A stretch of DNA of 21,055 nucleotides, taken from assembly GCA_002964805.2 (NCBI GenBank), contig PUDQ02000127.1:1-21055 (forward strand), in the 5' to 3' direction. The notes below the pieces were generated by a model, which was not told the origin of the DNA, made no database searches, and saw only the letters and a program-made list of their open reading frames with translations. How positions within the stretch are numbered: the stretch's first letter is position 1; every line of letters begins with the position of its first letter. The DNA comes from Trametes villosa. Its lineage: Eukaryota > Basidiomycota > Agaricomycetes > Polyporales > Polyporaceae. Made by a program: the position numbers and the translations under genes. Shown in pieces: positions 3,355 through 21,055 of this stretch.

Positions 3355-3560
3355 CGAGCCCGAAGTCTCGCGCTCGAGCTTCGTCGGTTTAGGCGCCCAC
3401 GCCCATCGCCCGCCACAATGTCCCTCGCGCGCGGCTTCGACTCTTCCTCCAGTTCCGCCGGCCGCGACTTCGCTCTCCCGCCTCACGCCGCTCATTCTCA
3501 AGCCTCAAGTCTGCTCGAGAGTGGCTTACCGTCGATGAAAGACTCCGGGGCGGCATATTA

Positions 3561-3624
3561 GTACGTACTGAGTTGAGACTCCTGACCGATTCCGACGGGT
3601 GGCTGACTTGCTGATTGGTTGCAG
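3561..3624 (+). other. intron-like GT-AG block, array block A
   Basis: The block is 64 nt: donor GTACGT, branch-like GCTGAC at 3602-3607, acceptor GGTTGCAG. It lies 137 bp before the AATAAGCGCC box at 3761. Confidence 0.45.
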
Positions 3625-4075
3625 ATCGCGGGCTAGTGTCAATGCGACCTACCGTTTTAAGCAAGCGTAATGTCGCGCGGTGCAAGAGGGAGGAGACGGC
3701 GGCTGGACGAACTTCGCGGCGGCGCGAAGTTGGAGACTTTGCAGTTTTGAGCGGTGTCGGAATAAGCGCCGGCGACTGCCCCGGAGCGCGAACCTGCCGC
3801 CGACTCGCTCCCCCCATTCCCGCCTCCACTTGAGTACTGGCGAGAGCCGATCATCCCCTCCTCGCCTCATTCCTCCACCTTTCGGGGCTTCAAGAGCCGG
3901 AACTTAGCTGTACGGCCGCTCGCCGGGGCCTGGCTCCTTCGAGCACTTGCACCCGGCCGCTCGGAGCCCGCGGAATCGAGAAGTGCGGCAGGGACGCACC
4001 TCAAGAGCGTCCTCGTGCGGGTTTTTCGGCGTACAAGTGCCATTCACGGCGGGAAACAGGCGGAAGGAGGAGCAG

Positions 4076-4138
4076 GTACGTACCTTTTCGGAGTACTCAT
4101 GTCCAAGTTCCCACTGACCTTTCTCTTTGCATACGCAG
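4076..4138 (+). other. intron-like GT-AG block, array block B
   Basis: The block is 63 nt: CAG/GTACGT donor, CACTGAC branch-like site near 4112-4118, pyrimidine-rich TTTCTCTTTGC, acceptor ACGCAG. It is the best intron look-alike of the array and lies 103 bp before the AATAGGCGCC box at 4241. Confidence 0.55.
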
Positions 4139-4486
4139 GAGGGCGGGGACTCGATCGGGCATCGCGCACGAGTAGACGAGGACGAGGGCGAGCGACAAGT
4201 CGAAGCCGGCGCGGGACTTTGCAGTTTCGAGTCGCGTCATAATAGGCGCCCGTGGTGGCTGAATCCGCGAACTCGTTTCTCACTCGGCCAACGCCCTCCT
4301 GCGCGCGGCGCGCGGCGGGAGAGTGCTCCTACGCCCTCCCTCGTCGCCCGCATCCACTTCCCGGACTTTGCGAGCGGGCTCGACCTCGCCGACGCCGGCG
4401 CGAGACGGCGTTCGCGCGGACGCTCTCTGAGCGCGTGGCGAGCGTTCGAGCGCGTCGCGCGGCGGGATCAAGCAGCCGCAGACGAG

Positions 4487-4546
4487 GTGCGTACGCAGTC
4501 GGCCTACCCCGTCTGCAGATACTCACCGACTTTCTCCGCCACGCAG
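4487..4546 (+). other. intron-like GT-AG block, array block C
   Basis: The block is 60 nt: GAG/GTGCGT donor, a CTCACCGAC region near 4523-4530 that could hold the branch site, acceptor CACGCAG. Its length is a multiple of three, so the surrounding + frame stays open whether or not it is removed. Confidence 0.45.
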
Positions 4547-4935
4547 GTTGCGCAAGGGGCGAGAGGCCGGCGCGGACAGCCGAGGGGGCACGCGGGTGGG
4601 AGAAGACAAGTCGCGGGTGGGACGTCGACGGCGGCGCGAGCCTTCGCAGCTTCGCGTCGCGTCGAAAATAGGCGCCCACTGACGGGCGAGTGCGCGAAGT
4701 CGGCGAGTGACTTTGCGCTCGCCTTCCGCCCGCTGTCTCGCGACTGCGACGCCGCCGGCCACTCATAACCCCATCCGCGCGTTTCCCGGCCGTCTCAGCC
4801 GGTACAAGACTCTCTGCGACGCCGGGGCGAAGTCCGCGCTCTTATCTCGCCGGAGCGTGGCACGGAAGGACGTGTGCACCCGCGGCGCCGAGCCGTGTCC
4901 GGCGCGCCTCTAGACGTCTAACCGAGCACCTGCGG

Positions 4936-4992
4936 GTAAGTGCCCACCTCGCCTTGCACCCGGCCTCCCTGCTGACCCGCTCGAGCTCGCAG
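4936..4992 (+). other. intron-like GT-AG block, array block D
   Basis: The block is 57 nt: donor GTAAGT, GCTGAC branch-like site at 4971-4976, acceptor CTCGCAG. It precedes the last, weakest box (AATAAGCGCC at 5117-5126) by 125 bp. Confidence 0.5.
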
Positions 4993-5165
4993 ATGGCGGA
5001 TTTGCGGAGGCGCGAACGGCTGACGCGGGATAGGGGAGACGGGAGGGGACGGGCGACAGCGGCAGAGCACGAACAGAGCCACAGCGGAGACTCTGCCCGT
5101 TCGCGCAGATCGTCAGAATAAGCGCCCGTTGCGCGAACGCGGACTTCGGCCGCTCGCAGCTCGGA

Positions 5166-5572
5166 GTACTCGTCGTAGTTTCCCTGAGCGTGCCCCAGTA
5201 GTACTGTGTACGGTCCACTTGAAATCTAGTGTTTCCGAGCCGTACAAACCGAGTGCCCGCCCCTCCTCCTGAGTCCCTCCTCCCCCCACTCCCGCCAGCG
5301 TTAAACTACCTCACAAATTCGACGTCCAGCGTTAAACTAGACACTGTTTTCGACGCAGAGGTCAGAATTGCATCAGGGAGATCTGTGCATTCCCCGAGAG
5401 GTTCACGGGGACGGCACCGACTCCTCCTCCCGCCGGCTCGCCAACGCCCGCCCCCCACACAGCCACCCCCGCGTCGCCGCCCCGCGCACCGCCACCCGCG
5501 AACACACACGCAGCTCGAGCGCACGAAATATATTCGCTGTCTACCACACGCCTGACTGCCGCGCCGCCCGCG
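5166..5572. other. non-homologous DNA at the purine-gene breakpoint
   Basis: No gene is recognised. The minus frame of the adjoining gene stays open to 5306, but its translation becomes Arg/Gly-rich low complexity with no similarity to the enzyme. A 13-bp direct repeat, CCAGCGTTAAACT, lies at 5295-5307 and 5326-5338. Confidence 0.5.
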
Positions 5573-6703
5573 AATGAGGAGGTTCGAGACCGTAAAGCCC
5601 GCCAGACCGGCTTTGGGCTTCGAGCCGCGCCCGACGGCCCCTTCGTCGCGGATCTCGCCGCCGGAGCCCGTCGCGGCACCGGGGTACGGCGAGACGGCGG
5701 TAGGATGATTGTGTGTCTCGACCTTGATGAGCACAGGCATATCCTCGACCTCGCTGTGGTAGAGGTGCTTGATTCCCGGGTTGGCATCGCTGCTGGCGGT
5801 GTACGACACGCCGAACCGGGGAGCGCGATGGCCTTCGAACACGGCGGCGTTGTCAGAGTACGCAGAGATGGTTCCGGTGCCATTCAGCTTCTCGGTGTTG
5901 CGGATCATCTGGAAAAGAGACGTGTCCTGGGCCTCCCCGTCGATCGTCCATGACGCGTTGAAGATCTTGTGGCGGCAATGCTCCGAGTTGACCTGCGCGA
6001 ACATGAAGAGCTCGGCGTCGGTGGGATTGCGGCTCATAGGCGCAGCTCCGGTCACATAGGCGGCAATGAGGTATTCAATCTCGTCGGAGGAAAGGGCGAG
6101 ACCCAGCTCCTTGTTCGCAGCGATGAGCTTCTGGCGGGCAGCCTCGCCATCGGTGTCGGAGACGAGATCGATCGTCCGGAGGGGGCTGGCTGCCTTGTGT
6201 GCGAAGATGGCCTCGGACTCGGGGATCGAAAACTGGACGACTTGAGTCATACGGTCGTGGATGAGGGGTGCGATACGATCCAGGACCTCTGGGGTGATGC
6301 TCGATCCGTCACTGGTGGTGAAAGCATACGCGAAACCGCGCTCAAGACGTTCCACCTGGTCTCCGATCTTGCATATTCTAGCAATGTCCGTCGCCTTGCT
6401 AGACCAAGGGGAGACTGAGCCCGGGCGGGGGAGCACGAAGACGACGTTCTGGCGCGACTGCAAGGCGGATGTCGTGCTTGGGAGCTCAATGTGATCACCG
6501 TACTCGAGGAGGCGTTCGAGGATACGGCGGTAGGGCGAGTCATGCTTGGAAAGCTCTGCCTCTGTGGATGGTGTTCGGCAAGCGACGAGGTGGATGTAGA
6601 CTGCATCTACGGATAAGATGTGCGGGCACGTCTTCTGGATGTTCCCGAGAATGACGTCCCGCTTGGACTCAGAGACAGAAGAGCCTCCTGGAATGACAAG
6701 CAT
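5573..6703 (-). pseudogene. ADE6: truncated phosphoribosylformylglycinamidine (FGAM) synthase, N-terminal ~377 codons
   Basis: The intact enzyme converts FGAR, glutamine and ATP to FGAM in step 4 of purine synthesis, in the cytosol, and is a single chain of about 1300-1350 residues in fungi. The fragment starts MLVIPGG at 6703; an in-frame ATG at 6724 is an alternative. It shows the N-terminal domain ending in SVSPWSSKATDIARIC and VERLERG, the linker with PTDAELFMFAQVNSEHCRHK and NASWTIDG, and the start of the synthetase domain with KVETHNHPTAVSP, PGAATGSGGEIRDEG and GRGSKPKAGLAGFTVSNLLI. No frameshift or stop is visible. Family similarity ends abruptly after SNLLI at 5573, where relatives continue with a PG..QPWE segment. 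The remaining ~950 residues, including the glutaminase domain with its catalytic Cys, are absent from the window. Loss of a functional enzyme is inferred; another full copy would be needed for purine synthesis. Confidence 0.85.
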
Positions 6704-7453
6704 TGTGATCTGCGTTGGGCTCATGTTAATGTACAGCGTCCCCTCGAGGAGCAGACTTCTCACCCGAGATCCGCTGCAGATGGCTCTATCTCGACCTCCA
6801 AGCCGGTGGGAGCCTGAGTTGCGCACCTAGCATGCCCAATGAGCGTGCATATTCGCTGCATTTCGGATGCTACTCACGACGCGCAGCGGTCAACAGAGTT
6901 AAGCGTGCAGTGGTCGACATCGAGAAAGAGATGGTCAGGAAATTTCTTGCAAAGAGACCGGGGAAATCTTATCTAATCTGTGGTAAGTCCGTACAGATCG
7001 GACTGCTCTGATTAAAGGGGAGATGCCCGATGGATCTCAAGGGAGCCAATCAAAGTGGACGCGGGGTCATACGGGCCTGGGCGTCCGACGGGACTCAGGC
7101 AGTCCTCGTTCTCCTCCACCTTTTGAAGCCGTCTATCCATAATGTTGCTTCTTGCTATTATGAGGGCTTTGAAGGCGAAATTGAAGACTGCGCCGCGGTG
7201 AGCAACAGCGTGGATGCTCAAGCACTGCGGCCGCCGCGCAGCTTAATGATCGCTCGGGGGCGAGGGCGATCTCGTCATTGCCGTTAATGCAATGGAGCAC
7301 ATGGCTCACTCGCGCGTAGCCGTCCTTGACGGTGATAGCTGCGCTCGGCGTGCGACTGCGTACAAACTCCTCTTCCGGTCCCACTCGGATATATAAAGAG
7401 TTCCGACCAGTTCACAAGACCGCTCGTTCTCACACCCACACTCTCACTGCGCC
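6704..7453. promoter_or_regulatory. divergent promoter region between the purine-gene fragment and the hydrolase gene
   Basis: This ~750-bp spacer lies between the two divergent starts. It contains a CCAAT pentamer on the + strand at 7046-7050 and one near 6836-6840, plus the hydrolase TATA box at 7390. Short open frames overlap here but none is convincing. Confidence 0.5.
7390..7397 (+). promoter_or_regulatory. TATA box of the hydrolase gene
   Basis: TATATAAA lies 64 nt upstream of the ATG at 7454, leaving a short 5' leader of about 30 nt. The start codon sits in GCGCCATGGAC, a strong eukaryotic initiation context. Confidence 0.7.
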
Positions 7454-9628
7454 ATGGACGCGAACGGCGGCAAGTCCGGGAGGCAATATGTGCCCTACGA
7501 ACCCCTCGTGACAAATCCCCAGCTCGCAAAACCCGCTTCCCTCTCGGGGCGAAGGCTCAGGGTTGTACTGGTCTTGCTCATTGCGGCGCTGGGCACCAGC
7601 CTGAACCTCTGCTGGCCCGCTGCGCAACCACACCGCTCTCCGGCACATGCAGTTGAGCCCGAGTTTGATTGGAATGCGGTAAGTCGCCATCTGAATCACA
7701 AGTCACGAGGCTGCGACGGACTCCTGTGAGTCTCCAGAGCTTTACCTATATGCGAGCTTCAGGGGTATGCATATAGCTGCCTCGGTGCTGGCAGATAGGC
7801 TCAGGGCCAGCGGTGAGCCCGAATTCCAGATGCTTGGCCAGTTGTGGATGTCTATGGCTCGCCGCGTAACTCGTAACACCTAAAACTGCATGGATGGTTC
7901 AAGGGGGTCCTTTGCTCATCGCACGAAGTTCCTCGTGATGTCTCGCAATGACCCGTTTTGAAAATACGAGGTTACTGACTTAAATATGTTTTCTCCCCTT
8001 CACCAGCTGGAGCCCTCTAAGACTATTCAGTGGACAACATGCTATTCCGACCAGAAGTGCGCTCGGCTGCTCCTTCCTCTAGACTACGGTACCCCCGACG
8101 GACCCACCACCGCCATCGCGCTGCGTCTGCTTCCTGCGACAGACAAAGAGAACTACAGAGGCCCCATCCTGATCAACCCCGGCGGACCCGGAGGCTCCGG
8201 CACATCTCTGCTCGAGCGCGCGGGTAAGAACATCTCGCGCATCGTCGGACCCTCCTTCGACATCCTCGGCTTCGACCCGCGCGGGATCGGCGCGAGCATG
8301 CCCTCGGCAGACTGCTTCGACACGGACTCGCAGAGGCAACTCTGGCACCTGCAAGATGATCGCCGTCTGCTCAACGTGACTGACGACTCCGTGGAGATCG
8401 CGCGCGCGAGACACAAGCTGGTTGCTGAACGATGCGAGGAGAAAATCGGGGGCAAGTGGGGCATCGCGCGGTTCATGAGCACGCCTGACGTCGCTCGGGA
8501 CATGCTCGAGATTTCGAAGCAGCTCGGTCAAGAAAAGCTGCAGTACTGGGGCTTTGTAAGTGTGCCACTTTGATTCGTCAACACACCCACTGACGTCGGG
8601 GACAGAGCTACGGGACTATCCTGGGCCAGTACTTCTCGGCGATCTACCCCGACAAGGTCGGTCGCGTCATCATCGACGGCGTCTACGACGCGCACAACTA
8701 CCGCGCCGCGCTCTGGAACTCGAACCTGCTCGACACCGACGCCGTCATCGACTCCTTCTTCCACTTCTGCCACCAAGCCGGCCCCTTGAAGTGTCCGTTA
8801 TACGAGTCCACCCCCGAGAAGATCCGCGCGCGCTACTTCGCCGTGCTGCACGCCGTCGAGGCCGAGCCGATCATCATCCCGAACGCAGAGCCGCCCGCCT
8901 TCGTGACGCGCAAGGTGCTCCAGGGCCGGCTGTTCGAGGCCTCGTACAAGCCGCTCAGCGCATTCACCACCATCGCGGACACGATCCACGCGATCGAGAG
9001 CCGCAACCAGACCGCGCTCACCGCGCTCGCGCCCAAGATCGTACCTCCCACCGAGTGCCAGTGCTCGTCCCCCGACCCGTGGCGCGCCGCAAACGAGGCG
9101 TTCACGCCCATCGCGTGCGGCGACGGTGACGCGCGCACCTTCGACCGCGCCGTCTACACCAAGTACTACGAGAGCCTCGCGGCGGACTCCGCGCTCGCCG
9201 CACCGCTCTGGGGCCAGCACTACCTCAAGTGCGCGACGTGGAACGTCCGTCCGAAATGGCGCTGGACGGGCCCGCTCGCCGCGCAGAACACGTCGCACCC
9301 GCTGCTCATCGTGCAGCCGCGCTACGACCCGGTGTGTCCCCTGCGCGACGCGCGCGCGGTGCAGAAGCGGTATGGTGGCGCGGGGCTGCTCGTGCAGAAT
9401 TCGTACGGCCACTGCTCGCTCGCGGCGCCGTCGCTGTGCACGGCGAAGCATGTGCGGGCGTACATGGAGAACGGGACGCTCCCGGAGGCGGGCACCGAGT
9501 GCGAAGCGGATGAGCTGCCGTTCGTGGGGTCTGTGAACGATATACGTACGTTATCAGTGGAGGACACGGAGTTGCTGGAAGCCATGAAGGGCTTATCGGC
9601 GGTGGTACCCATGTTCGGCGCATTGTGA
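7454..9628 (+). CDS. membrane-anchored TAP-like alpha/beta-hydrolase (serine hydrolase/peptidase), 3 exons
   Basis: Exons 7454-7678, 8007-8555 and 8606-9628 join in phase 0 to give 598 residues. The introns are 328 nt (GTAAGT...TACTGAC...CACCAG) and 50 nt (GTAAGT...CACTGAC...GACAG). Residues 37-54 form one hydrophobic segment after a basic RR stretch, suggesting a signal anchor with an exported catalytic domain. The fold is marked by the oxyanion-type loop NPGGPGGSG (132-140), FDPRGIG, the nucleophile elbow GFSYG with Ser259, an acid at Asp499 in QPRYDPVCP, and His527 in SYGHCS. This layout fits the fungal/actinobacterial hydrolases with a TAP-like C-terminal domain, some of which are tripeptidyl aminopeptidases; the substrate cannot be read from sequence. 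Cysteines in the catalytic domain and several N-x-S/T sites fit secretion. Intron 2 falls exactly between the Phe and the catalytic Ser. Intron 1 is unusually long for this genome and might hide a small exon. Confidence 0.88.
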
Positions 9629-10560
9629 AAGGTTTTGTACCTTCTGCTCGCGAATGCAGTTCTCATATGGTTAGGCTTCCTTCCAAGTGGGCTGGCTGGC
9701 TTCGATCCGGAACTGCAATCATCGCCGCGCGTAGTCTCCTGTAGTCTCCTGTGACTTCTCACGTTACAGCGACGCTCGAATCGCCAGGACATTCCCGTTT
9801 CTCCCCGGGTATGGGATTGCAGCGAATTGTCGACGTGAGTGCCTTTGCAGCCATACTGGGAGTCAGGTCTTTTGAACTAATGATGTTTGGCCGCTATTTT
9901 CCCCGCGCTCTCTTGAACAGACCAACCTGCCGCATGTGAACTGCGGTCACGGAGGCATTAATGGGGGAAGATACTCCTCCCAAGCCCCGCGATGTCAACG
10001 TCATGAGCCAGGCGGGATACCTGTGTGCCATATATACAGTTCACCGCGGTAAGTCTCCAAGCCATAGCTTTCCAAACTTCGTCCCGCGCGTGTCTCGCCT
10101 CCGCACGTATACAATGCCAGCAAGAAAGCAGCCCGTTATGTCCTGCCGCATGCCGACGCCCGAACCTGAGCAGTCTGCCACTGCTCCGGCATGCGCTCTC
10201 TCTGACGATGCGACTACCGATGACAACAAACGTAAGGACTCCCACCACCTTATAACTGTGCGGTGTACCATAAATTCAATGCACCACTAGACGCATGGCG
10301 TTAGAACAGTGCGCGTAGTGAGGAAGTACGCCTATGCAGCACGACGGGTGAGAGACAGGTCAGGCCGAGCGGACGCGGTTGTAATACTCAGGGGGGTGCA
10401 CTCTATAGCGCATAGTACCTCTATGACGTAGGATGTATGTCAAACTGGAGAGTTCCGAGGACAGAGTCCTTGGATCGCCGCGGACATAGGGTGAGGTTTT
10501 GATCCAGTAAATCTGACGACTATGATACACACATATTTCGGCGAACGGTCCCAACGCGCG
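9629..10560. other. intergenic region downstream of the hydrolase
   Basis: No complete gene is seen. A 10-bp direct duplication (TAGTCTCCTG twice) lies near 9731-9750. A TATA-like CATATATAC at 10029-10037 precedes a possible small first exon, listed separately. The rest is AT-richer than the coding neighbours and shows no domain. Confidence 0.5.
10114..10231 (+). pseudogene. possible orphan first exon of an unknown gene
   Basis: From the ATG at 10114 (context ACAATGCC), 39 codons plus one base run to a donor C/GTAAGG at 10232. The peptide is short, Pro/Asp/Thr-rich, begins MPARKQPVMSC and ends DDATTDDNK. A TATA-like element lies about 80 bp upstream. A possible acceptor at 10309 opens a frame of about 40 residues that stops near 10430, shortly before the repeat-rich segment at 10561. 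I cannot identify the product. It may be a chance ORF, or the head of a gene broken by the repeat-bounded segment downstream. Confidence 0.25.
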
Positions 10561-10605
10561 CTGGGTATAAGGCCCAGTGAGAATCGACAAGATCCAATGG
10601 GATCC
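10561..10605 (+). repeat. left copy of a 45-bp inverted repeat with a palindromic core
   Basis: The palindromic core CTGGG-TATAAGG-CCCAG at 10561-10577 is followed by a 28-bp flank (10578-10605). The flank is the exact reverse complement of 11686-11713. The core is not inverted relative to the right copy. Confidence 0.85.
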
Positions 10606-11685
10606 AGATAAATCCCACGCGATTTAGAGTGAACGCCTGTGGGGGATCCCGCCGGATGTAAATGGATCCCAAAACCGTTCGAGGGATCTTTTTCCTTTAG
10701 GTCCAATTAGATCCAGTTGTGTCTATGTACGTCCATTGGATTCTGGCAGGTTTCGTTCAAATCCGAATCCATTGGATCCCGGAAGCTCCAAAATCTACTG
10801 TACATTGCATCCCGGGCGCCGCCGGGTGGTACCCTGGTCCCGGTCGACACGCTCTTGCGCCAATGCGCCCCTTCCCTGCGCCCCCTTCGTCGTCCTCTGC
10901 ACGCCCTCCCCGTCCTCCCCGCCCTCCCCGCACCGCCCGATGGCCACTGTCTGCTGCCCGCGCTGCGCGTTGTCGCTTCGCGAGCCGCAAGCGTCTTGAC
11001 GTTGCGACACCTACCTGTAGTCGAGCCTATTGCGTCACTGGTACCACCCTCACCCTGCGTCGCAACAACCCGCCTCGACGGACACTCACCTCCGTATATG
11101 CTGCCCAAACATAGCCCGGGACTCCCTGCTTCGCGTCTGGACGAATCTTCCGAAAGCTATCACTCACCTCATTCTACAACGAAGCTCCCGGTCTCGGCGA
11201 TCTGAGCTGCAGTTCTTGGCCGAGGTGAACCTATGTCGAGACACAGGCTATCCGTGCCTGTACCGTTAGCATAGAGGCGCTCATCTGAGGAAAAGTACTC
11301 ATCGCGAGAGGCGGTAGAGTCGCTGTAGACAGCGAGCGCTATGCCGCAGAGTCCCCAGAAGACGGTGGTGGTAAGAGGAAGAAGTCGGTTGAGGTGTATG
11401 TTATCGCCACTCGCAGGCTATATACTTTGCTGAGCGAACGTCTGTGAAGAAGGTGACGGGATTCAAAACTATCAACCTAACTTGCAAACGCCGACGAAGG
11501 TCGTTCAATTTGGCAAGTTGCGTAGTGGATTCCTGCATCGGACGCGAAGGCGAGCAGACGTCAAAGCAGAGCGATGTCCGTCAAAACCGACGGGAAAGCA
11601 AGAATTTGTGCGAAGGAAGCCCTGGTACTCGTCCGAATTTGATTTGAGATCGCACAGGATCCAGTTGGATCTTTTGGAACTTTTT
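10606..11685. mobile_element. segment bounded by inverted repeats, possible non-autonomous element
   Basis: About 1.1 kb lies between the two inverted-repeat copies. The outer parts on both sides are rich in GGATCC/GGATCT motifs, with CCATTGGAT near 10732 and 10771. The middle (about 10800-11060) is Pro/Ser-codon-rich and GC-rich. The open frames are low complexity and share no domain with known transposases. The border structure suggests a mobile segment, but no target-site duplication was identified. Confidence 0.35.
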
Positions 11686-11730
11686 GGATCCCATTGGATC
11701 TTGTCGATTCTCACTGGGTATAAGGCCCAG
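11686..11730 (-). repeat. right copy of the 45-bp inverted repeat
   Basis: 11686-11713 matches the reverse complement of 10578-10605 at 28 of 28 positions. It is followed by CTGGG-TATAAGG-CCCAG at 11714-11730, with the 7-nt loop in the same orientation as in the left copy. Confidence 0.85.
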
Positions 11731-12206
11731 CGAGAAACGCTCCTTTCCGGACGGATCTGTACATATCTGTAGAGCTTCCCTCAAAATATATACGTGTAGA
11801 ACAATGTAGATCAACAAATGTCCTATAGATCAACGAAAAAAAAATCTGCGCATTTCCGCGCTGATACGCATCGTTCTGCATATATCCGCAACAGTGGATC
11901 CATTGGGATATGTACAGAAATACATGTAGGCTGGAGCTACTACTACGCGTCCCGAATCCCCCCGCGCGCGGTTCCGAAGAATCCCGCCTGCCCACTCCCC
12001 GCACTGCTTCCTGCCGGCGTGTGACGTGCGCGAGATTGATGGCTTGAGGGGGACGAATTGCGGGAGGCGGGGGCCGGGGCCGAGGCGGACAGATCAGGCG
12101 CAGACGCGAGGCGGAGGGGGCGAGATGGCAGGAGGCAGCAGGGACGTAGAGAGCGAGGAGCACGGGGGAGGGGCGAGATCAGATGGAGGCACCAGGCAAG
12201 ACCACG
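11731..12206. other. AT-rich then purine-rich intergenic DNA
   Basis: 11760-11930 is AT-rich with a run of nine A, repeated TGTAGA/TGTACA words and another CCATTGGGAT motif near 11900. From about 11990 it becomes GC-rich and purine-rich on the + strand. No gene is recognised. Confidence 0.5.
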
Positions 12207-12300
12207 GCGCAAGAGGAGACCGAGGCGGGCGCAAGAGGAGACCGAGGCGGGTGCAAGAGGAGACCGAGGCGGGCGCAAGAGGAGACCGAGGAGAGTGTCA
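12207..12300 (+). repeat. 22-bp minisatellite, about 4 copies
   Basis: The word AAGAGGAGACCGAGG recurs starting at 12211, 12233, 12255 and 12277, an exact 22-bp period. Degenerate partial copies follow to about 12330. Because 22 is not a multiple of three, all three + frames translate into the same Glu/Arg/Gly-rich pattern. The long open frames here therefore reflect the repeat rather than a gene. Confidence 0.85.
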
Positions 12301-12422
12301 GGAGACCGAGGCGGGCGGGCGAGGAGACGAGACGAGGTCGAGAAGACAGGCACGGGCAGCTGCGCGGGGTTGGCGAGTCACGGAGGCGTGCACAGCGGAG
12401 GGCGAGCCAGGGCGAGCGAGGC

Positions 12423-14227
12423 TCAGGTGCTCGCTGCGCTTCCTTTCGGGGCGGCGTCAGGTTTTTCGGGGACCTCCCAGCCCCCGGTAGACATGTAGAC
12501 CTATGTAGAGCGTGTTAGTATACGTGTAACGTAGTCGCGCGTACTCACAATCCGTTTGTTCCGGTTGGTCTCCTTGTACCATTCGTCGTACTCCTCGCGC
12601 GTCCTTGTAGGGTTCCTGCCCGCCCAGACGCGAGCACATATATCCCTACGTCGAAACAATGTCAGTCAGTACTGTTCGAATAACAAAGACGAAACCCACT
12701 TAGGCTTCATGTGGGCAGCGTCGTCCGGAGGTGGCCACGGCTTGGCAGCGGCGGGAGCGGCAGCCTTCCGGGGCTTGCGGGTCTTCTTCTTCGGAGCTTC
12801 CGAGTTAGCGTCCTCACCGGTGGGAATGACGGCGGGACTGGGGGTGACAGCGGACGTGGACGTGGACGACGCCGGGGCGGTGGAGGCGTTCTCCGGGGCG
12901 GTGGAGGTCTTCTCTGGGGCGGTGGATGTTTTCTCCGAGGCGGCGGAGATCTTTGCGCTCTTGCGGGGCGCGGGCTCCTTCTTCGATGCCGCCAAGGTAG
13001 AGGGTATTGTTGTGCTTTCTGGAGCTTCCGGATCGTCCCAGGTCATGTTGGCCCTGGAGTATGGGAGAATAAGTAAATCAATTCGGTGACAAGGTGCGAG
13101 AGTGGGAGACTTACAATGCCTTACGGAACGTCACCTGATGGTACGACCGTTAGCCACTGTGTGAGACTGAGTAGAGCAGTCACCGACCTTAGCAGGCGCT
13201 TTCTTCTGCGCGGGGGCGGGGGTGTTCGCTGTGGGGGCGGGAGCGGGGACGTTCGCCGCGGGGGTAGAGGCCTGGGTGTTCGCTGTGGGCGCGGAGGTGT
13301 TGGTCGTGGGCGCGGCGGCCTGGTTGTTCGCTGTGGGGGCGGGCCCGGCGGGGTCGTTCGCCGTGGGGATGGGGGTGTTTGCCGTCCGGGGCATGGCGGC
13401 AGGGAGCGGCAGGTCTTGCCCAAGTGCCACGGGGGCGAGCGGGTTTTGCACGGGGGAGGGCGGATTCAGCTCGAGCCCGGGGTCGCCCTGTGCAGGCCTT
13501 GGGGAATCATGTTCAGGACCGGAAATGTCGTTCCCTGTCATAGGGTCGTCGAGGTACTCGATGGAGGGCGAGGGACTGGGCGCGCGAGAAGGGATGGAGG
13601 GAGCGGGAGAGGAAGTTCGACGGCGCTTGGCGCTCGGCTCCTCGTCGTTCTCATCCGGCGAGTCCTGCGCACGCGAAGACGCACCCACTCCGGAGGTGTC
13701 CGCCGAGATGCGGAAGGGCGCATGGGCGAGGACGTCCCCGACGACTGCCGCTCCGGCCAGATCTTTTTCGTGCTCGATCTGGTCGGCGGTTTTCGCTGCC
13801 CAGCACATCAGCATCTGATGTAGCATAGCTACTAGCACGTACCTGTCGCCTTGCTCTTCCCCTTTTGATCCTTCTTCTTGGCTGCCTTCGCCGCCTTAGC
13901 CAAGCGGGCCAGTCGAGCTTCGTACTTTTTCTTCCACTGCGAGTAGTTGGATAGAATCGCAACCTTGTCGGCTTTCCAGTCATTGTCGCAGAGCTGGAGT
14001 TCAAAGCATTGTGTGCGCATCCAGTGGCGGTACTGGAGCGCAATCTGTGCATCGCTGCCCTGTTGCCATGTCGCCGGCGCCCGTTTGTCTTGATGCAGGT
14101 ACACGCAGAACTCGCGGAACCTCCGGCGGATGGTCTTGGCGCGGTCACCGTCAACAATGTTACCTTCGGGGTCCGTGTAAAACTCACGGGTGTCGGGCAC
14201 TTCTGATGCCCGCAGTCTCCAAGTACT
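12423..14227 (-). CDS. uncharacterised low-complexity protein, six exons, 5' end missing
   Basis: Exons, in transcription order, are 14227-13843, 13795-13188, 13134-13115, 13053-12700, 12645-12549 and 12500-12423. They sum to 1542 nt, 513 codons plus TGA. Introns are 47, 53, 61, 54 and 48 nt with GT-AG ends; branch sites GGCTAAC (intron 2) and TACTAAC (intron 5) are near ideal. The N-terminal ~115 residues look folded and basic, with TREFYTDPEG, RRRFREFCVYL and SQWKKKYEARL, then a Lys/Ala-rich stretch that could be a nuclear signal. The middle is disordered: Ser/Pro-rich, then Pro-Thr-Ala-Asn repeats and a TAPEKTS repeat. The C-terminal part contains REEYDEWYKETNRNKR. I do not recognise the family. 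No ATG opens the first exon: upstream the frame meets TAG, and CAG at 14228-14230 reads as an acceptor (TAG at about 14240 is an alternative). The true start must lie beyond the retroelement LTR or be lost. Confidence 0.7.
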
Positions 14228-14278
14228 CTGGTCCGGGCTCTATTAGGGCTCGGCGTACTCGGGAGATGGTGGGGCAGT

Positions 14279-14463
14279 TGTAGAAGGCTGCCCTCACCAG
14301 ACGCGCGGGCTCCGAATACCCGCGCGTCGTACGCGTCTATCTACTACATGATATCTACGCGGTATCTTATCCTAGCGCAACTAGCGCTAGGTACTGATCG
14401 CGACATAGCGCAACTAGCGCTATGTCCTACAAGAACCCGTAACGACCGCGGAGGGTCGTTACA
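14279..14463 (-). repeat. 3' LTR (about 185 bp)
   Basis: On the minus strand the LTR opens with TGTAACGACC immediately after the polypurine tract. The left boundary is inferred from the matching TTCTACA end at 14279 (TGTA...TACA). The LTR is largely a string of hairpins: 14439-14462 (arms of 9), 14403-14425 (arms of 9), 14371-14391 (arms of 8) and 14300-14328 (arms of 10). The right boundary is firm; the left one is a best guess because the other LTR is not in the window. Confidence 0.6.
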
Positions 14464-14475
14464 CTCTCCCCCTCT
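14464..14475 (-). promoter_or_regulatory. polypurine tract priming plus-strand DNA synthesis
   Basis: AGAGGGGGAGAG on the minus strand directly abuts TGTAAC of the LTR, the expected position for the retrotransposon polypurine tract. Confidence 0.8.
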
Positions 14476-14933
14476 AGACCCGTTGTACGGGTCTACAATA
14501 GAATATTATAATAAAAGGAACGACTGCTGATATTTGCAGTCATAGCACTATATGATACAAAGAGTTGCGCATAGTGCGTGCGCAACTCATATATACAATG
14601 AGTCAGTGAGCCAAGTAGGCTCACAGGGTGGTCACAGCAGTGCAGTGGGATATATACACGACTGCAGATAGTAGCAGTCATACCACTACACTACCATGAT
14701 ATGGTAGTGTTTTTGTTTTTGGGTTATTGATGCGCGCACCGTGGGGTGCGGCTATGTACATTAGTACCGCAGCTATGGCGGACGAACCGATCAATTTTTG
14801 ACGCAGATCGGTTGCGTTATGCCCGAGGAGACGATAATATCGTCTCCTACAGGGACTGCAAATATTTGCAGTCATACCGTCGTGGTATACGACGAGTGCA
14901 TGACGGATGCACTCGAAGGTTGTGATTAGACAC
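14476..14933 (-). other. hairpin-rich non-coding tail of the retroelement
   Basis: These ~460 bp between the second ORF and the polypurine tract code for nothing recognisable. Perfect inverted repeats lie at 14562-14588 (arms 10), 14688-14710 (10, loop 3), 14826-14848 (10, loop 3), 14854-14873 (20-bp perfect palindrome) and 14893-14915 (9). One at 14929-14945 (6) overlaps the stop codon of the ORF. Confidence 0.8.
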
Positions 14934-17501
14934 CTACGCGGTGTCGTCGTGTGGCGATGACGGGGTGAGAGGGGAGGATCCCTGCTCACCCGTCGCGTTC
15001 TCGCTCTCGTCGTGCCTGTCGCTAGCAGCGGCAGGCGGTTGGGAAGGCCCGGCGACGGGTGCCTCCTGCACGTCCTCCATCGCGCGAGCGGGGGAGTATG
15101 GCGGAGGTGGGACTCCGTCATCGGGATGGGTACCCGCCACTACGTGTGACGGGGTCGAGGCAATGCTCGACGGTTCGGCGACCGCAGTTATGGCGGTCGC
15201 GGCGGTGGTAGTGGACGCGTCGGTCATGTCGACGTCGTCGGTGGTAACGGCAGGCACCTCGGGCGCCTGCGGGGGTGCTGGTGCGGGTGCGGGTGCTGGT
15301 GCGGGTGCGGGCGCGGGCGCAGGTGCGGGCGCGTTGGGGGGCGGCAGTGGGCCGCCTGTGGCGACTGGTCCCAAGTCCCGCGAGCTGGGCACGACTCCGA
15401 CGTCGAGAGTCGAATTCGGGCCGCCATCCATTTGAGGCAGCAGCGACCGAAGGTCGCGCCCGTTCCGCTCGTTGCGGCACAGTCTCGCGAGCGGCAGGAA
15501 CCGCTCCGCAGCCGTCGGGGTAAGACCGCGCGCCGCAAACCAGCGCGCTAGATGGAACAACGTCGTGCTTGCGACGTCGTTGGGGTAGGGGCCCGGGTGG
15601 TAGCTAGTACCTACGGGGTACTGCCCCTGCTCTACCACGTAACGGTAGAGCCCTGGCACTGAGAACAGCCAGTGGGCGAGGGTCACCCAATGACCTCGCG
15701 GTCCCAGTGGCGTGCCGCGCGGCAGCATCGCTCGAACGGCAACGTGGTACTCCACGCTGCGCGTCGTAGGAAGCCCATTTGGCTCCCGCTCCATCCACTG
15801 AGGGATACGGCGCTCATCGACGCCATACCAAGCCTGCCACACAGCAGGCGGGTCACTGAAGCTCGGCTGGTTTGGGGCCGGCGCCATGCGCTGGGCACGC
15901 AGCTTCAGTTTGACCTCCCGCCACTCGGCGGGCGTCCGCTTGCGCGAGAGGGTCGACGACGGCGGCGGCAAGTGCGCCGTCGACGCGTGCTCGAGTCCAG
16001 GGGGAGTGTTTCCCCGGGAGTCGGCTCGTTGAACCGCCGCGATCAGCGGCGGCGGCGCCTCTCGACGCCACGACGACTGTAGCTGGTTAAGACCAGCCAC
16101 TCCTGTGTACTCTGAGCGGGAGTTCACCTGACCGATGAGGTCACGTATGCGGTGAGCTGCCTCACCCGTATCACGGCGAGCAGCCATGATAATGTTGTTG
16201 GCGTCCGCGACGGACACCGGCACGTAGTTGTACCAGTGCCCCGCGAGACGCGGGTCCGAGTCGGTGGGGAGGGCCAACAGGTGGTACGGCCACCCGGGGA
16301 CCCTCGCCACATCCGTCGCTGGTTGCGGCGGAGGTTGCGTGCCAAACGGCGCGCCCTGACCCGGAGCATGTGCCGGGCCAGTGTCGCGACGAGCACGACG
16401 ATACCGGTTTCGAGAGACGAGTCTCTCGATCCGCCTCTCGTCGATGTCGTCGTCCTCGTCGCTCGTCGCGTTCTCCCAGTCCACCATAGGGTGGTCCCGG
16501 TCCGCGGATGTCGACGAGGTCGGCATCGCCGTCGAGTTCGACGGTCCTGCCACATTTGGCGTCGTCATCTGCGACGCTCCAGTCCTCGATGGTCCTGCCC
16601 CGCTGGGCAGCGACACGATCGGCATCAAGCTGGGCCCAGCGGACGGCGCTGAGCTCCTTGATGTCGACGCGAACGACCTATCGTTCGCAGTATCCCTCCT
16701 CCGAGGGCTGAGTTCCCTCGGGTCGCGTCGTCGTTCGTCGCGCGGAGGCGACGCCCTCCTGTGCCGAGCCCGACTGAGCTCAGCCTCCAACTGCGAGCGC
16801 ACTTCATCGCGCTCGCGCTCGTACTCGTCGCGCTCCTGGCGAGCGGCCTCGCGCTCGCTCCGGTACCTGTCCCGGATCGACTTCGTCTCGTCGACGAGCT
16901 CCTTCATCTTCTGGAGCTTCGCCTCGAGCTCCGCGATCCGATCGCGGCTCCTCCCCTCCTCCACCCTCTGGTGCTCCTCGAAGTGCCGCCAGAACCGCTG
17001 CTGCAGTTCTGACTGGACGCGCGTCTGCGCGTCCCGGAACGTCGAGTCCGACGCCGCCGAATTGTAGTGGCGGACAAAGTCCGCGCACACAGCGCAGTTG
17101 TCGCTGTGCGCGACCAACAAGTGTTGGCCCGCTACGGGCGCCCAGGTCATGCTCGAGAAGGGCATGAGGGGGATGCCACCAGTCTGTGGCATCGGCACGC
17201 TCGAACTGGGCGCGCTCTGGAATGCAGGACCCGCTTGATGCGGGAACTGGAAGCCGCCGCCGTACGGAAACCCGTAGGCGGGCATGCCCTGCGAGAAGGC
17301 ATGCGGGAACTGCTGGGGGTGGGTTACCCCCGGCATGGACGAGAACGCGGGAGCTGCCGCTTGTTGCGGCAGCAGGAACTGCGAAGGTTGGGGGAAGGGG
17401 ATGTTTTGTTGTTGAGGGGCCGCAGGTTGCGACCCCTGTTGCTCCGAGGCTTGCTGCCCGGAGCCGCTGGCTTGCGTGTTGTCTTGCGGGGCGTCGTTCA
17501 T
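14934..17501 (-). CDS. post-pol ORF of the chromovirus, 855 aa, unknown function (env position)
   Basis: It starts at a real ATG (17501) 247 bp after the pol stop and ends before the polypurine tract, so it is an internal gene of the element. Residues 1-130 are Gln/Pro/Phe-rich. HSDNCAVC (about 132-139) followed by H could bind a metal but is not a CCHC knuckle. Residues ~155-250 are a charged, heptad-like coiled coil, followed by an Arg/Ser-rich disordered stretch. From ~400 to ~690 it looks folded, with GWPYHLLALPTDSDPRL, PPAVWQAWYG, WVTLAHWLFSVPGLYRYVVEQ and LFHLARWFAARGLTP. An Ala-Pro repeat follows near 724-745, and PPPPYSP near 800 contains a PPxY motif of the kind bound by Nedd4/Rsp5 ubiquitin ligases. 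I see no signal peptide or membrane helix, so a classical envelope protein is unlikely. It could be a displaced structural (Gag-like) protein or a chaperone or accessory factor. Its role is unknown. Confidence 0.75.
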   Translation of the reverse strand: MNDAPQDNTQASGSGQQASEQQGSQPAAPQQQNIPFPQPSQFLLPQQAAAPAFSSMPGVTHPQQFPHAFSQGMPAYGFPYGGGFQFPHQAGPAFQSAPSSSVPMPQTGGIPLMPFSSMTWAPVAGQHLLVAHSDNCAVCADFVRHYNSAASDSTFRDAQTRVQSELQQRFWRHFEEHQRVEEGRSRDRIAELEAKLQKMKELVDETKSIRDRYRSEREAARQERDEYERERDEVRSQLEAELSRARHRRASPPRDERRRDPRELSPRRRDTANDRSFASTSRSSAPSAGPSLMPIVSLPSGAGPSRTGASQMTTPNVAGPSNSTAMPTSSTSADRDHPMVDWENATSDEDDDIDERRIERLVSRNRYRRARRDTGPAHAPGQGAPFGTQPPPQPATDVARVPGWPYHLLALPTDSDPRLAGHWYNYVPVSVADANNIIMAARRDTGEAAHRIRDLIGQVNSRSEYTGVAGLNQLQSSWRREAPPPLIAAVQRADSRGNTPPGLEHASTAHLPPPSSTLSRKRTPAEWREVKLKLRAQRMAPAPNQPSFSDPPAVWQAWYGVDERRIPQWMEREPNGLPTTRSVEYHVAVRAMLPRGTPLGPRGHWVTLAHWLFSVPGLYRYVVEQGQYPVGTSYHPGPYPNDVASTTLFHLARWFAARGLTPTAAERFLPLARLCRNERNGRDLRSLLPQMDGGPNSTLDVGVVPSSRDLGPVATGGPLPPPNAPAPAPAPAPAPAPAPAPAPPQAPEVPAVTTDDVDMTDASTTTAATAITAVAEPSSIASTPSHVVAGTHPDDGVPPPPYSPARAMEDVQEAPVAGPSQPPAAASDRHDESENATGEQGSSPLTPSSPHDDTA

Positions 17502-17748
17502 GGCGCGGGCGTCGTTGTTGGTGGTGGTGGTGAGGTGGCAGAGGTCAGTTATGACCCTGCACTCGCGAGGTCGCCGTCTTAAAGCGCCGGCGGAGTCCGA
17601 ACGCGTCGGTGGCTGCCTCGCGCACGCGAGCCTGCACGTGACGTACTACTTCACGGTCACGCGCTCTCTGCGCGTGCTCTGTCCTTCACCACGACTACTC
17701 AATCGGGTAGTCTTGACCACGAAGCGCATGTTGCGCTTCGTACATCCG
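17502..17748 (-). other. spacer between pol and the second ORF
   Basis: This 247-bp stretch contains no LTR-like TGTAAC end or polypurine tract, which argues against two tandem elements. It carries a perfect hairpin at 17719-17741 (arms 10, loop 3). How the second ORF is translated (separate or spliced RNA, or re-initiation) is not visible. Confidence 0.6.
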
Positions 17749-20700
17749 CTATGTCTTGGCGGATGTTTTCTTGGGCAACGCGCGCCAAGATGACACGCCC
17801 ATTAGACGACAATACTCGTCTAATGCTACGAGCTCCTTGCAGTGCTCGTAGGGTTCCCATGTATGGTCCCCCATCGTCCACCGCACGTGGAACTGGCACT
17901 TATTGCCATTCCACTCGTGGCCGATAATCTCTTCCACCAACCATTCGGTGGAGTCTTCATTGCCGAAGTCGTAATACGACTTCGCCTCACGATGCGGAAA
18001 TACCGCATCGTCGTTTGGCTCATAGCGTCGTAATAGCGACGCGTGGAACCGAGGGTGTATCCTTCGGTTCCGGAGTTCTTCTGGTAACTCCAGTACGTAG
18101 TTTGACGTACTGGGTATGCTCTCAATTATAGCATACGGTCCGATGTATTTGGGCACGAGCTTTCGTGCCCGGCCCTTAGGTATCGACAAATTCTTTGTCG
18201 ATAGGTATACCTTGTCCCCGACCTCAAAGTCGGGTTCGGCTTGCCTATGCTTATTCGCATAGTGTGTCTGGCGCACTCGCGCCTCGATGATGGCATCATG
18301 CGCCATCTCCAAGTTCGCCTTGGCTCTGAGTGCGAACTCTCGCACTCCTCGAAACGGAGTATCCGTTCCGATTCCGTTCATGGAACGCGGGAGGTACCCG
18401 TAGTTCAACTCGAACGGAGCGAACCCTGTGGTAGAACTTACCGCAGAGTTGATAGCGAACTCCGCTATCGGTAGCTTCTCATACCAGTCCAACTGGTCAG
18501 GAGCTACCAATGCACGGAGTATCTGCGACACTGAGCGTATACTACGCTCAGATAATCCATCCGTCTGTGGATGGAACGACGTGGACATAAGCAGCTTCGC
18601 CCCCATAAGACGATGCAGCTCCTTCCAGAACTTGGAAGTGAACTTCGAGTCTCTATCAGAGACTATGGAGTCCGGTAGCCCGTGTAGACGGACTACTTCC
18701 CTGAAGTAGACCAGCGCCAGGTCTGACGCTGTGTCGGTTGTCTTGATGGGTATGAGGTGTACCATCGAGGTCAACCGACAGACTACAATCCATATGTAGT
18801 CATATCCGTGCGAGGGCGGAAACGGACCGAAGAAATCCATGGACATAGACGTCCATGGCACCGTAGGTATCGGTAGCGAGTGTAACAGCCCTATAGGGGG
18901 CTGTGTACTTATTTTCGTGGTGTGGCACACGCCGCACGAAATGCAGAACTTGTCCACATCTTTGCGTAACGCGGGCCACCAAAACCACTTGCGCACGTAC
19001 TCTGACGTGCGCTGAGGTCCAAGATGTCCAAGCGCGCTATGCGCTTGGTCTAACACGAGCTCCTGAAGGGCCCGTTTCCGATACAGACCACGAGGTATAC
19101 ACAATACTTCGTCGCCTTCACGGTTCTTGGTGTATATCACACCCTCGCGCATTACGAATGCGCGATGCTGAGTAGGCCGTTCCAGTATTTTCTGGAACGT
19201 CGGGTCATTAACATAACCTGACTTGACGGCTTTCAGGAAGCCGTCGTCTCCTTCTACCCAGACACGCAAAGAGGGACCCGCAGATAGCGAGTCCGACAGC
19301 GTCACATTGTCGCTGTCCGGGGTTGCTGCAGTCACCGAGATAGGTGCGTGTGCAGCGTAACGAGCCGACTCTACGACTCGTTCCTCTATTGGTTCTTGCA
19401 CGCGTGTAGCGTGCGCGTTGTCTGTCTCTAGCTGCGCGAGTTTCCGCGCAGATCGACGCAACACTCGAGCTGCGCGTAGCTCGATGAGTCGGGAGAAGGG
19501 GAGATCATCCCCTTCAGGATCTAGCCGCAAATCGGCGTTAACATAGTCGAAATCTTCGGCTAGTTCCTCTATGTCGTCGTGCTCAAAGTAGCGGGACAAA
19601 CAGTCCGCTACTTTGTTCAGTTTACCTGGAATATAGGTAATCGTCTTGTCGAACCTCGACAAGAATTCGTACCACCGTATCTGACGGTGGTTAGGACGCT
19701 TGAGTCCCTCAAGGAACTCGAGAGCTCTATGGTCGGTGACTATATTGAGCTTTCGTCCTATGAGCTTGTCCTCCCACTTGAACAAGCCTTCCATGATGGC
19801 GAGGGCTTCTTGCTCATAGGTGCGATACGCCCGTTGTGCGGACGTAAATTTCTTCGACAGGAACCCGGCTGGCCTGCAAGTTTGCCAGTCGGGTCCTTGC
19901 CCGTATAACGCTCCGAGTCCATACACGGACGCATCACAGATCAACCAAATGGGATCTGTGGAAGCCGGATCTATCGGCTTCAGTATGGGCACCTTACACG
20001 CGAGTGCTTTGATAGATTCAAAGCACTTGTCGTGCAGTGCGCGCCATACGAACGGACGGTCGTTATGGACCATGTCCGATAACGGCGATGTGTACGCCGT
20101 TACATCTGGCATAAAATGTGCCAGATAGTTTACTAGCCCGAGGAACCGCTGCACCTCGTTATACGAGCGAGGTGTTCGCCAGTTCCTGATACGGCTCATC
20201 TTATCCGTATCGGCGTGTAGTCCCTTGTCATCTATTCGGTGACCGAGACAATCCAAGTCTTTGGAGTATAAGTCGCACTTGCTGCGGCTTAGGAAAAGCT
20301 TCGCCTCTCGAAGCTTTTCGAACACTATCCTTAAGTGTTCTTCGTGCTCCTCCTTGGAGTCCGAAAATACGAAAATGTCGTCCAAATAGACATGGACGAA
20401 CCTTCCGATACAGTCACGGAATATGGCTGTCATTAGACGTTGGAATGTGGACGGGGCGTTGGTGTCGCCCTGTTGCATGACCTCGCTCACGAACGTCCCG
20501 TAAGGCGTCGCGAACGCGGTCTTCCACACGTCCTCCGCAACTATGCGGATCTGTTCGTATGCGTCGGACAGATCAATCTTCGAGCGATACTTCGCTCGAG
20601 CAACGTCCATCCGGATCTGGTCTTGATCCGGAAACGGTGTCAGATCGTGCACCGTGTTCTGGTTTCGTTGTCGCGCATCGAGTACGGTGCGCAGCTTGCC

Positions 20701-21055
20701 ATTCTTCTTGGCAACGCACAGCAGAGGCGCTGCTTGCGTGACCGTTACCGGTCGCCACCAGCCTGCCTTCACATAGCGATTGATTTTCGCTATGAGCTCG
20801 GGCTTCACCACGTCCGCGCAACGTGGGAGATGATAGCGATATTTCTTCGCTTCATCGATGAGCGGAATGTGGTGATTGATCTCCCGGAACGGCGGGAGAT
20901 GCTCCGGCGCAGGACGCATAATGTCCTCGGTGGCCGCATACCAGCGGTCACGAAGAGCTTTCAGCTCCTCCTCTTCCTCGTCTATGACGAACCCAGCGTG
21001 GGTTCGTCGGATCTGTTCGTCTTCCCACTGCTCCTTGGCTATCTTGTCCAAGAGC
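17749..21055 (-). CDS. pol: Ty3/gypsy chromovirus Pol: reverse transcriptase, RNase H, integrase, chromodomain (5' partial)
   Basis: The frame is open to the window edge. The first in-frame codons are Leu, so this is the C-terminal ~1100 residues of a longer polyprotein. Counting from 21051: RT spans about 80-310, with Asp160 in KIDLSDAY and the catalytic YLDD at 222-225. RNase H has Asp373 in LICDAS, a Glu in TYEQEA and Asp440 in TDHRALEFL. The integrase zinc finger has HSALGH (671-676) and C706-x2-C709. The catalytic core is Asp739, Asp799 and Glu835, with exactly 35 residues between the last two. A chromodomain at about 1033-1080 (EWLVEEIIGHEW ... WTMGDHTWEPYEH) ends the protein and in this clade is thought to guide integration to marked chromatin. 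All catalytic residues are present and no stop interrupts, so the enzyme appears functional. The coding sequence is packed with short hairpins. Confidence 0.95.
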   Translation of the reverse strand, partial: LLDKIAKEQWEDEQIRRTHAGFVIDEEEEELKALRDRWYAATEDIMRPAPEHLPPFREINHHIPLIDEAKKYRYHLPRCADVVKPELIAKINRYVKAGWWRPVTVTQAAPLLCVAKKNGKLRTVLDARQRNQNTVHDLTPFPDQDQIRMDVARAKYRSKIDLSDAYEQIRIVAEDVWKTAFATPYGTFVSEVMQQGDTNAPSTFQRLMTAIFRDCIGRFVHVYLDDIFVFSDSKEEHEEHLRIVFEKLREAKLFLSRSKCDLYSKDLDCLGHRIDDKGLHADTDKMSRIRNWRTPRSYNEVQRFLGLVNYLAHFMPDVTAYTSPLSDMVHNDRPFVWRALHDKCFESIKALACKVPILKPIDPASTDPIWLICDASVYGLGALYGQGPDWQTCRPAGFLSKKFTSAQRAYRTYEQEALAIMEGLFKWEDKLIGRKLNIVTDHRALEFLEGLKRPNHRQIRWYEFLSRFDKTITYIPGKLNKVADCLSRYFEHDDIEELAEDFDYVNADLRLDPEGDDLPFSRLIELRAARVLRRSARKLAQLETDNAHATRVQEPIEERVVESARYAAHAPISVTAATPDSDNVTLSDSLSAGPSLRVWVEGDDGFLKAVKSGYVNDPTFQKILERPTQHRAFVMREGVIYTKNREGDEVLCIPRGLYRKRALQELVLDQAHSALGHLGPQRTSEYVRKWFWWPALRKDVDKFCISCGVCHTTKISTQPPIGLLHSLPIPTVPWTSMSMDFFGPFPPSHGYDYIWIVVCRLTSMVHLIPIKTTDTASDLALVYFREVVRLHGLPDSIVSDRDSKFTSKFWKELHRLMGAKLLMSTSFHPQTDGLSERSIRSVSQILRALVAPDQLDWYEKLPIAEFAINSAVSSTTGFAPFELNYGYLPRSMNGIGTDTPFRGVREFALRAKANLEMAHDAIIEARVRQTHYANKHRQAEPDFEVGDKVYLSTKNLSIPKGRARKLVPKYIGPYAIIESIPSTSNYVLELPEELRNRRIHPRFHASLLRRYEPNDDAVFPHREAKSYYDFGNEDSTEWLVEEIIGHEWNGNKCQFHVRWTMGDHTWEPYEHCKELVALDEYCRLMGVSSWRALPKKTSAKT

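Follow-up and report, generated by a model that had tools for sequence, protein, structure and literature searches.

Short perfect hairpins along a Ty3/gypsy retrotransposon of Trametes villosa and their probable maintenance by selection for local RNA folding

The window analysed here, i.e. the whole stretch of 21,055 nucleotides at the start of contig PUDQ02000127.1 of the fungus Trametes villosa (assembly GCA_002964805.2), ends within a retrotransposon with long terminal repeats (LTRs). Positions 14279-21055 represent the 3' part of this Ty3/gypsy element, which is about 10.4 kb long and will be referred to as family A (Table 1). Its pol gene, a further open reading frame (ORF2) and its non-coding 3' end carry many short perfect hairpins. 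The original prediction, which had pointed to these hairpins, placed the element at 14279-21008. The hairpin-rich element is real, but this limit is wrong because the element runs past the window end at 21055 and its gag gene is hairpinned as well.

Table 1. Features of the family A element in the window and selected hairpins
Feature	Position	Strand	Description	Evidence
pol, cut by the window end	17749..21055	-	Reverse transcriptase, RNase H, integrase, Tf2-1-like SH3, weak chromodomain; 30 perfect hairpins with arms of at least 8 bp	Pfam, hairpin count, shuffles
pol-ORF2 spacer	17502..17748	-	One 10-bp hairpin at 17719-17741, just past the pol stop	
ORF2, 855 amino acids, third ORF after pol	14934..17501	-	10 hairpins with arms of at least 8 bp; no Pfam family	
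Non-coding 3' tail	14464..14933	-	Hairpin-dense; purine run next to the LTR	Purine run read from sequence
3' LTR, 185 bp	14279..14463	-	Sense strand TGTA...TACA; four hairpins with arms of at least 8 bp	
Example hairpin	19584..19615		Arms 11, loop 10	
Example hairpin	20293..20319		Arms 11, loop 5	
Example hairpin, tail	14826..14848		Arms 11, loop 1	
pol hairpin intact in family B	20580..20599		pol offset 455-474	
pol hairpin intact in family B	18837..18858		pol offset 2196-2217	

In pol, the Pfam profiles RVT_1 (115-274) and RNase H (366-468) precede integrase (661-828), which is the domain order of Ty3/gypsy elements. SH3_Tf2-1 is present as well, and the chromodomain match is below the Pfam cut-off. 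In the copy L037, pol is preceded by a gag frame of 870 amino acids, in which a zinc knuckle (CCHC) scores above the cut-off and aspartyl protease profiles score below it. Thus, by Pfam the element belongs to the Tf2-1-like branch of the Ty3/gypsy elements (Metaviridae), with which it shares the reverse transcriptase, RNase H, integrase and SH3_Tf2-1 domains, the zinc knuckle and protease of gag and the LTRs. Unlike other Ty3/gypsy elements, it has a third ORF after pol and a hairpin-built sequence. Copies were sought in the genome from which the window derives (46.7 Mb, 140 contigs). The 655 bases at the 3' end gave 40 DNA matches, of which 24 were full-span (one minus the last base) and two partial. 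Since the other 14 are confined to the LTR, they define its bounds. A purine run at about 14464-14475 adjoins the LTR and is by its position a putative polypurine tract. One copy, bounded by the 185-bp LTR at both ends, occupies about 10.4 kb (C3:3930578-3940997). Among 42 scored matches to pol, taken from 226 candidates, the first 18, including the window, are 98-100% identical and constitute family A, while family B and group C share 76-78% and 57-61% amino-acid identity, respectively. Matches to named proteins come mostly from polypores (Trametes sanguinea, coccinea and versicolor) and, farther off, from Phanerochaete and Phlebia. Scans of the viral_contigs and genome_contigs collections revealed no DNA relatives beyond this genome.

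Three observations concern individual copies. Positions 14175-14344 match L027:9184-9353 in contig C140 at 98%, so that flank and LTR end occur together; either the flank is repeated or the insertion was duplicated. At L034:9253-9447, 195 nucleotides that are 98% identical to the pol end of the window adjoin a family C element. Moreover, the LTR copy L042 (C3:2179062-2179908) is devoid of the stretch matching window positions 14390-14405, which is flanked on either side by a near-repeat of the same hairpin sequence; hairpin repeats may prompt deletions.

Hairpins in the window were counted as non-overlapping perfect inverted repeats with arms of at least 8 bp and loops of 1-11 bases. The original prediction had reported at least 27 of them in pol, six and thus fewer in ORF2 and nine in the LTR and tail (655 bp); the recount yielded 30, 10 and 10, respectively. 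Its eight pol examples were recovered with their coordinates and arm lengths, namely 17800-17825 (10), 17964-17984 (10), 18181-18203 (10), 18531-18551 (9), 19584-19615 (11), 20003-20027 (10), 20293-20319 (11) and 20986-21008 (10), as were those in ORF2 at 15178-15200, 15629-15651, 16410-16429, 16669-16688, 17172-17193 and 17353-17373. The remaining 14,278 bases (1-14278) harbour two hairpins. Neither lies in the hydrolase gene (7986-9628), for which a similar density had been denied.

Chance, or a bias in codon usage or composition, is a very improbable source of this pattern. Synonymous shuffles that preserve the protein, the codon counts and the dinucleotide counts gave a mean of 1.17 hairpins in pol (standard deviation 1.05), and the highest of 200 shuffles reached 6, versus 30 observed. 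The synonymous shuffling that had been proposed as a check thus failed to reproduce the observed count, and the earlier chance figure of 0.6 was a little low. For ORF2, the mean was 1.32 and the maximum 4 of 200 shuffles, versus 10 observed, and the gag frame of 870 amino acids contains 13 hairpins versus 0.8 expected. To cover the whole element, a composite of 9,941 bases, whose 5' part derives from copy L038 and the rest from the window, was compared with dinucleotide shuffles using loops of 3-9 bases. Arms of 8-11 bp were observed 60 times versus 1.15 times in the shuffled sequences. The excess over expectation grows from 84/51 (5 bp) through 65/13 (6 bp), 43/3.6 (7 bp), 34/0.85 (8 bp) and 15/0.25 (9 bp) to 10/0.03 (10 bp), and one stem of 11 bp was found versus 0.02 expected. 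Altogether, 158 non-overlapping stems of at least 6 bp were identified in the composite, which corresponds to about one per 63 bases. The loops of stems of at least 8 bp are mostly 3-7 bases long; in this figure, as in those for loop motifs, imperfect stems and spacing below, 246 pol bases entered twice, from two copies. An upper limit on stem length was also considered and is not supported, as two related family B loci together hold three 12-bp stems. The codon register of the hairpins (11/7/12 for arms of 8, 16/9/20 for arms of 7) proved too weak to be used.

The predicted folding is strong all along the element. Relative to the codon and dinucleotide shuffles, the z-scores for local folding in family A are -13.3 for gag, -18.6 and -20.6 for two pol frames and -12.6 for ORF2. 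In the order gag, pol and ORF2, the scores are -12.8, -15 and -7.8 for family B, -5.3, -10.1 and -5.6 for C1 and -6.2, -8.0 and -1.5 for C45. They range from -1.2 to -4.8 for C15 and from -0.1 to -4.1 for C35, C140, C77 and the Ty3 frames of C92. The same gradation is seen in the energy difference, determined for 350-base windows against dinucleotide shuffles. In family A, the predicted values are 34.9% for gag, 36.7% for pol, 18.1% for ORF2 and 53.9% for the tail; all 28 family A windows are positive (12.2 to 62.8%), with a mean of about 32% by our own averaging. The energy difference of pol is 29.7% in family B, 20.9% in C1, 15.9% in C45, 10.2% in C15 and 5.5-7.2% in C35, C140 and C77, and a frame of copia type in L034 shows mild structure (5.0%, z -4.8). 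The pol tree pairs C1 with C45 and C35 with C140 as sisters. These sister pairs match the levels of structure, which are thus partly inherited and change within the clade. In the pol of C35 (L028), stems of at least 6 bp are fewer than expected by chance (4 versus 9.1), opposite to family A. The comparison with other Ty3/gypsy elements of the genome, which had also been suggested, was made with L040 and L041. Both have the same pol domains as family A, yet lack the hairpin excess, and their energy differences are -2.4% and -1.0%, respectively; four host stretches gave -1.5 to 2.0%. Together, these controls do not support a trait general to all elements or to the whole genome.

According to the predicted folds, the structured frames are hardly more paired than their shuffled versions. 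In pol, paired bases make up 0.645 of the sequence versus 0.610 after shuffling, while 77% of the pairs span at most 32 bases as compared with 49% in the shuffled sequences. The median span is reduced from 33.5 to 17, and the positional entropy from 0.93 to 0.52. The prediction for gag is alike (in gag and pol, 77-79% versus 49-52% of pairs within 32 bases) and that for ORF2 weaker, while C140, apart from stems that are slightly longer, does not leave the shuffled range. The target of selection seems to be local, well-determined folding and not more pairing.

Selection on the hairpins is supported by the variation among copies, which is low at sites in the arms, whereas sites in the loops are not protected. 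For this comparison, a hairpin of any copy was included in the arm mask of family A pol. Among the 18 pol copies, variable third codon positions amount to 17/204 in arms, 16/56 in loops and 146/842 outside. When the arms are set against all other third positions (162/898), none of 1082 circularly shifted masks gave as low a value. Four-fold sites behave similarly (8/112 variable in arms versus 68/412, p 0.015), and so do the six copies of family B, with 5/72 third positions variable in arms versus 222/1023. By contrast, the individual hairpins are short-lived over longer distances. In the family B copy B_C28, 28 of the 30 pol hairpins of family A are broken and two remain intact (Table 1). Changes on a single side are even between the families, with 32 to G-U and 31 to A-C, and Watson-Crick pairs occur in 8 of 23 doubly changed cells. 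Polarising the changes between A and B by means of family C left many sites ambiguous, with third positions being saturated.

Over shorter distances, the window can be compared with an old copy (L039) along ORF2 and the tail. The sequence next to the old copy on its upstream side (L043) matched the element neither in the window nor in L036-L038. For arms of at least 7 bp, the changes comprise 17 to G-U, 4 to A-C, 5 from one Watson-Crick pair to another and 3 others, where the shares in the controls are 0.352, 0.355 and 0.017 for the first three classes. Viewed in one direction, 20 of 210 pairs have changed (9.5%) versus 18.8% of the control pairs. When the pol copies of family A, the family B copies (without C14 and C67, which align poorly) and L039 are pooled, the odds ratio of G-U to A-C is 1.94 (p 0.004) for arms of at least 7 bp, 1.76 (p 0.04) for arms of 8 and 1.57 (p 0.01) for arms of 6. 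A whole-locus comparison of family B, which also covers unrelated flanks, gave 0 G-U and 6 A-C from B71 to B_C28; the reading given here rests instead on the L039 comparison and the pooled data. The original prediction had stated that arms diverging independently, without compensation, would speak against it. This is what is observed for most arms at long range between A and B; at near range, the arms are kept and paired changes occur relative to the old copy. The divergence between A and B argues against fixed functional stems but leaves selection for local folding as such untouched. The RNA-folding role under selection that had been suggested is supported by the shuffles, the conservation of arms and the excess of paired changes and of G-U intermediates relative to L039. 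Packaging, control of translation and silencing, which had been suggested along with it, are candidate roles.

The same comparisons bear on a mutational process, in which template switching, be it during reverse transcription or during DNA replication, keeps perfecting palindromes without any selection for RNA folding. Such a process would fit the perfection of the stems and the turnover of their positions, and in six sets the static imperfect stems contain similar numbers of G-U (31) and A-C (24) pairs. Template switching is also a known source of hairpins, and the mutations presented in PMC8794818, which generate and preserve hairpins, share perfect stems and paired changes with the element. 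The differences found here are, however, mostly of single pairs, with G-U favoured relative to L039: among 13 window hairpins that have changed relative to the old copy, 12 are altered in a single pair, and in the reverse direction two of five changed L039 hairpins are altered in one pair and three in two. At the control rate, about 31 changed pairs would be expected, whereas 15 were seen, of which 3 were compensated. By our estimate, about half of the missing pairs should be present as compensated pairs if self-templated repair were unbiased. Amino-acid changes between A and B are not raised in arms (50/219 versus 194/874 codons). Together with the conserved arms and unprotected loops, the pooled preference for G-U and the two Ty3 elements devoid of the trait, these data make the mutational process an unlikely sole explanation. 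The palindrome-perfecting reverse transcriptase that had been considered earlier is disfavoured by the single-pair differences, the few compensated pairs and the flat amino-acid change.

Folding of the sense strand was also compared with that of the antisense strand, each relative to shuffles. In ORF2, the sense strand folds better in two tests (z -6.5 and -4.2), and the other frames of A and B differ by -0.7 to -2.7 in the first test. These results are relevant for a third explanation, according to which selection acts at the DNA level, with the hairpins working in single-stranded complementary DNA or as cruciforms and both strands being equivalent. Family A pol indeed folds alike on both strands in one of the tests, and among its changed pairs G-U is not significantly preferred for arms of 8 or of 7 (p 0.03 at 6). 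The sense bias of ORF2 and the preference for G-U relative to L039 are at odds with this explanation, which we regard as rather improbable on its own.

We consider it probable (roughly 0.7) that the RNA of the element has been shaped by selection for local folding, acting mainly on the sense RNA and not on fixed stems. According to this reading, the hairpins would be kept by selection and the genomic RNA would fold locally, with each piece pairing with its neighbour. Several results weigh against it. At arms of 8, neither family A pol nor family B alone prefers G-U significantly (p 0.41 and 1.0), and both are devoid of compensated pairs; family A pol reaches significance only at arms of 6 (p 0.03) and family B alone never does. 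For pol, the two strands differ by -1.0 to -2.7 in one test, but by +0.46 for A and +0.13 for B in another, and an unstructured host stretch reached -2.6. Moreover, A-C imperfect stems are in excess along with G-U ones, both in family A (30 versus 8.6, 43 versus 4.4) and in ten sets together (186 versus 81 and 132 versus 51). Control pairs share columns and the copies are related, so that the p-values serve as guides, and the Ty3 elements L040 and L041 of the same genome do without the structure. We therefore read the data as selection of moderate strictness, mainly on the sense RNA, with a possible share of DNA-level or mutational effects. That RNA alone is the target is less sure, the strand tests being clear in ORF2 and weak in pol.

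As for the benefit of local folding, the host genome encodes Argonaute, RNA-dependent RNA polymerase and Dicer domains. A self-folded RNA might be a poor annealing partner for antisense transcripts, sister copies and small RNAs, and would then feed the silencing by host Dicer and Argonaute less. Escape from RNA-RNA pairing in silencing is the possible benefit that we favour, although we hold it to be less probable than not. The numbers of open 8-mers speak against it: they are not lower in gag, ORF2 and family B pol, and family A pol is inside the shuffled range. The closing of open sites against small-RNA seeds is not supported by these counts. More speculative still is the view that the entire genomic RNA of the retrotransposon has been recoded at synonymous sites into a chain of local hairpins that would prevent its pairing with other RNAs, as a counter-defence against silencing that rises and falls between sister families of one genome.

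Alternatively, the same hairpins could assist gag, with its zinc knuckle, in collecting and packaging the RNA, and compaction in particles would then be the benefit. The CCHC zinc knuckle of gag, the presence of hairpins along the whole element and the peak of structure in the non-coding end are in line with packaging. However, the hairpin spacing is irregular, with coefficients of variation of 0.74 and 0.79 versus 0.67 for random positions, and inspection of 70 listed loops uncovered no shared loop motif. A regular spacing serving as a packaging ruler was not seen, the spacing being slightly more irregular than random. Both as an explanation of the hairpins and as the benefit of folding, packaging is a tentative proposal, ranked just below escape from silencing.

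The element resembles RNA viruses with genome-scale ordered RNA structure (GORS), which has been studied in these viruses and whose cause is debated. As described in PMC3950689, GORS consists of consecutive local stem-loops through coding regions with energies well below those of shuffled sequences, the pairings being poorly kept between relatives and the paired sites less variable. All of this is found here: energy below the shuffled level all along, many stem-loops, poor conservation of pairings and less variable arm sites. The difference is that the carrier is a fungal LTR retrotransposon, in which short perfect hairpins dominate. Genome means of the energy difference given in PMC7642675 are 7-9% for hepatitis C virus and 15% for SARS-CoV-2, with local peaks above 50%, and 23.4% was the highest genome mean then recorded for vertebrate RNA viruses. 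The family A mean exceeds these virus means, which were obtained with a different shuffling. In the portion of PMC11381356 at hand, the genomic RNA of yeast Ty3, likewise an LTR element, was mapped by selective 2'-hydroxyl acylation analysed by primer extension, and stable POL regions were reported; that portion deals with individual hairpins and stable regions and not with a genome-wide excess over synonymous controls. Among the titles and abstract beginnings listed from open-licence literature pairing retrotransposons with RNA structure, none mentions a genome-wide hairpin excess in an LTR element. What we describe is a known kind of RNA structure in a new carrier, lying above the published virus means examined and dominated by short perfect hairpins. 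Many near-identical copies, together with related families in which the structure ranges from strong to nearly absent within one genome, provide a natural comparison for its benefit. Small-RNA profiles, packaging and transposition could be used to test the benefit of global RNA folding.

The third ORF is recurrent in families A, B and C (14934-17501 in the window; L022, L027-L029 and L031-L034). With a length of 684-938 amino acids, it follows pol in all ten A, B and C loci that reach past pol. The third ORFs of four other loci contain no Pfam family above the cut-off (for one locus, among the best 25 of 47 weak matches). When the window's own sequence was used as query, ORF2 had only two protein relatives. 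The protein is rich in proline and glutamine, and a coiled coil is predicted. In the structure model, which is of low confidence (mean predicted local distance difference test score 46), a long helix alone stands out.

Further features were noted in the remainder of the window. Between 12206 and 13375, G-rich tandem repeats with units of 21-27 nucleotides (12206-12328, 12872-12953 and 13210-13375) adjoin the element. A 57-nucleotide inverted repeat (10559-10615 and 11676-11732), whose arms are 84% complementary and 1060 nucleotides apart, possibly represents the ends of another mobile element. Finally, the minus strand carries at 5306-6826 a gene with the N-terminal and linker domains of FGAR-AT, an enzyme of purine synthesis.

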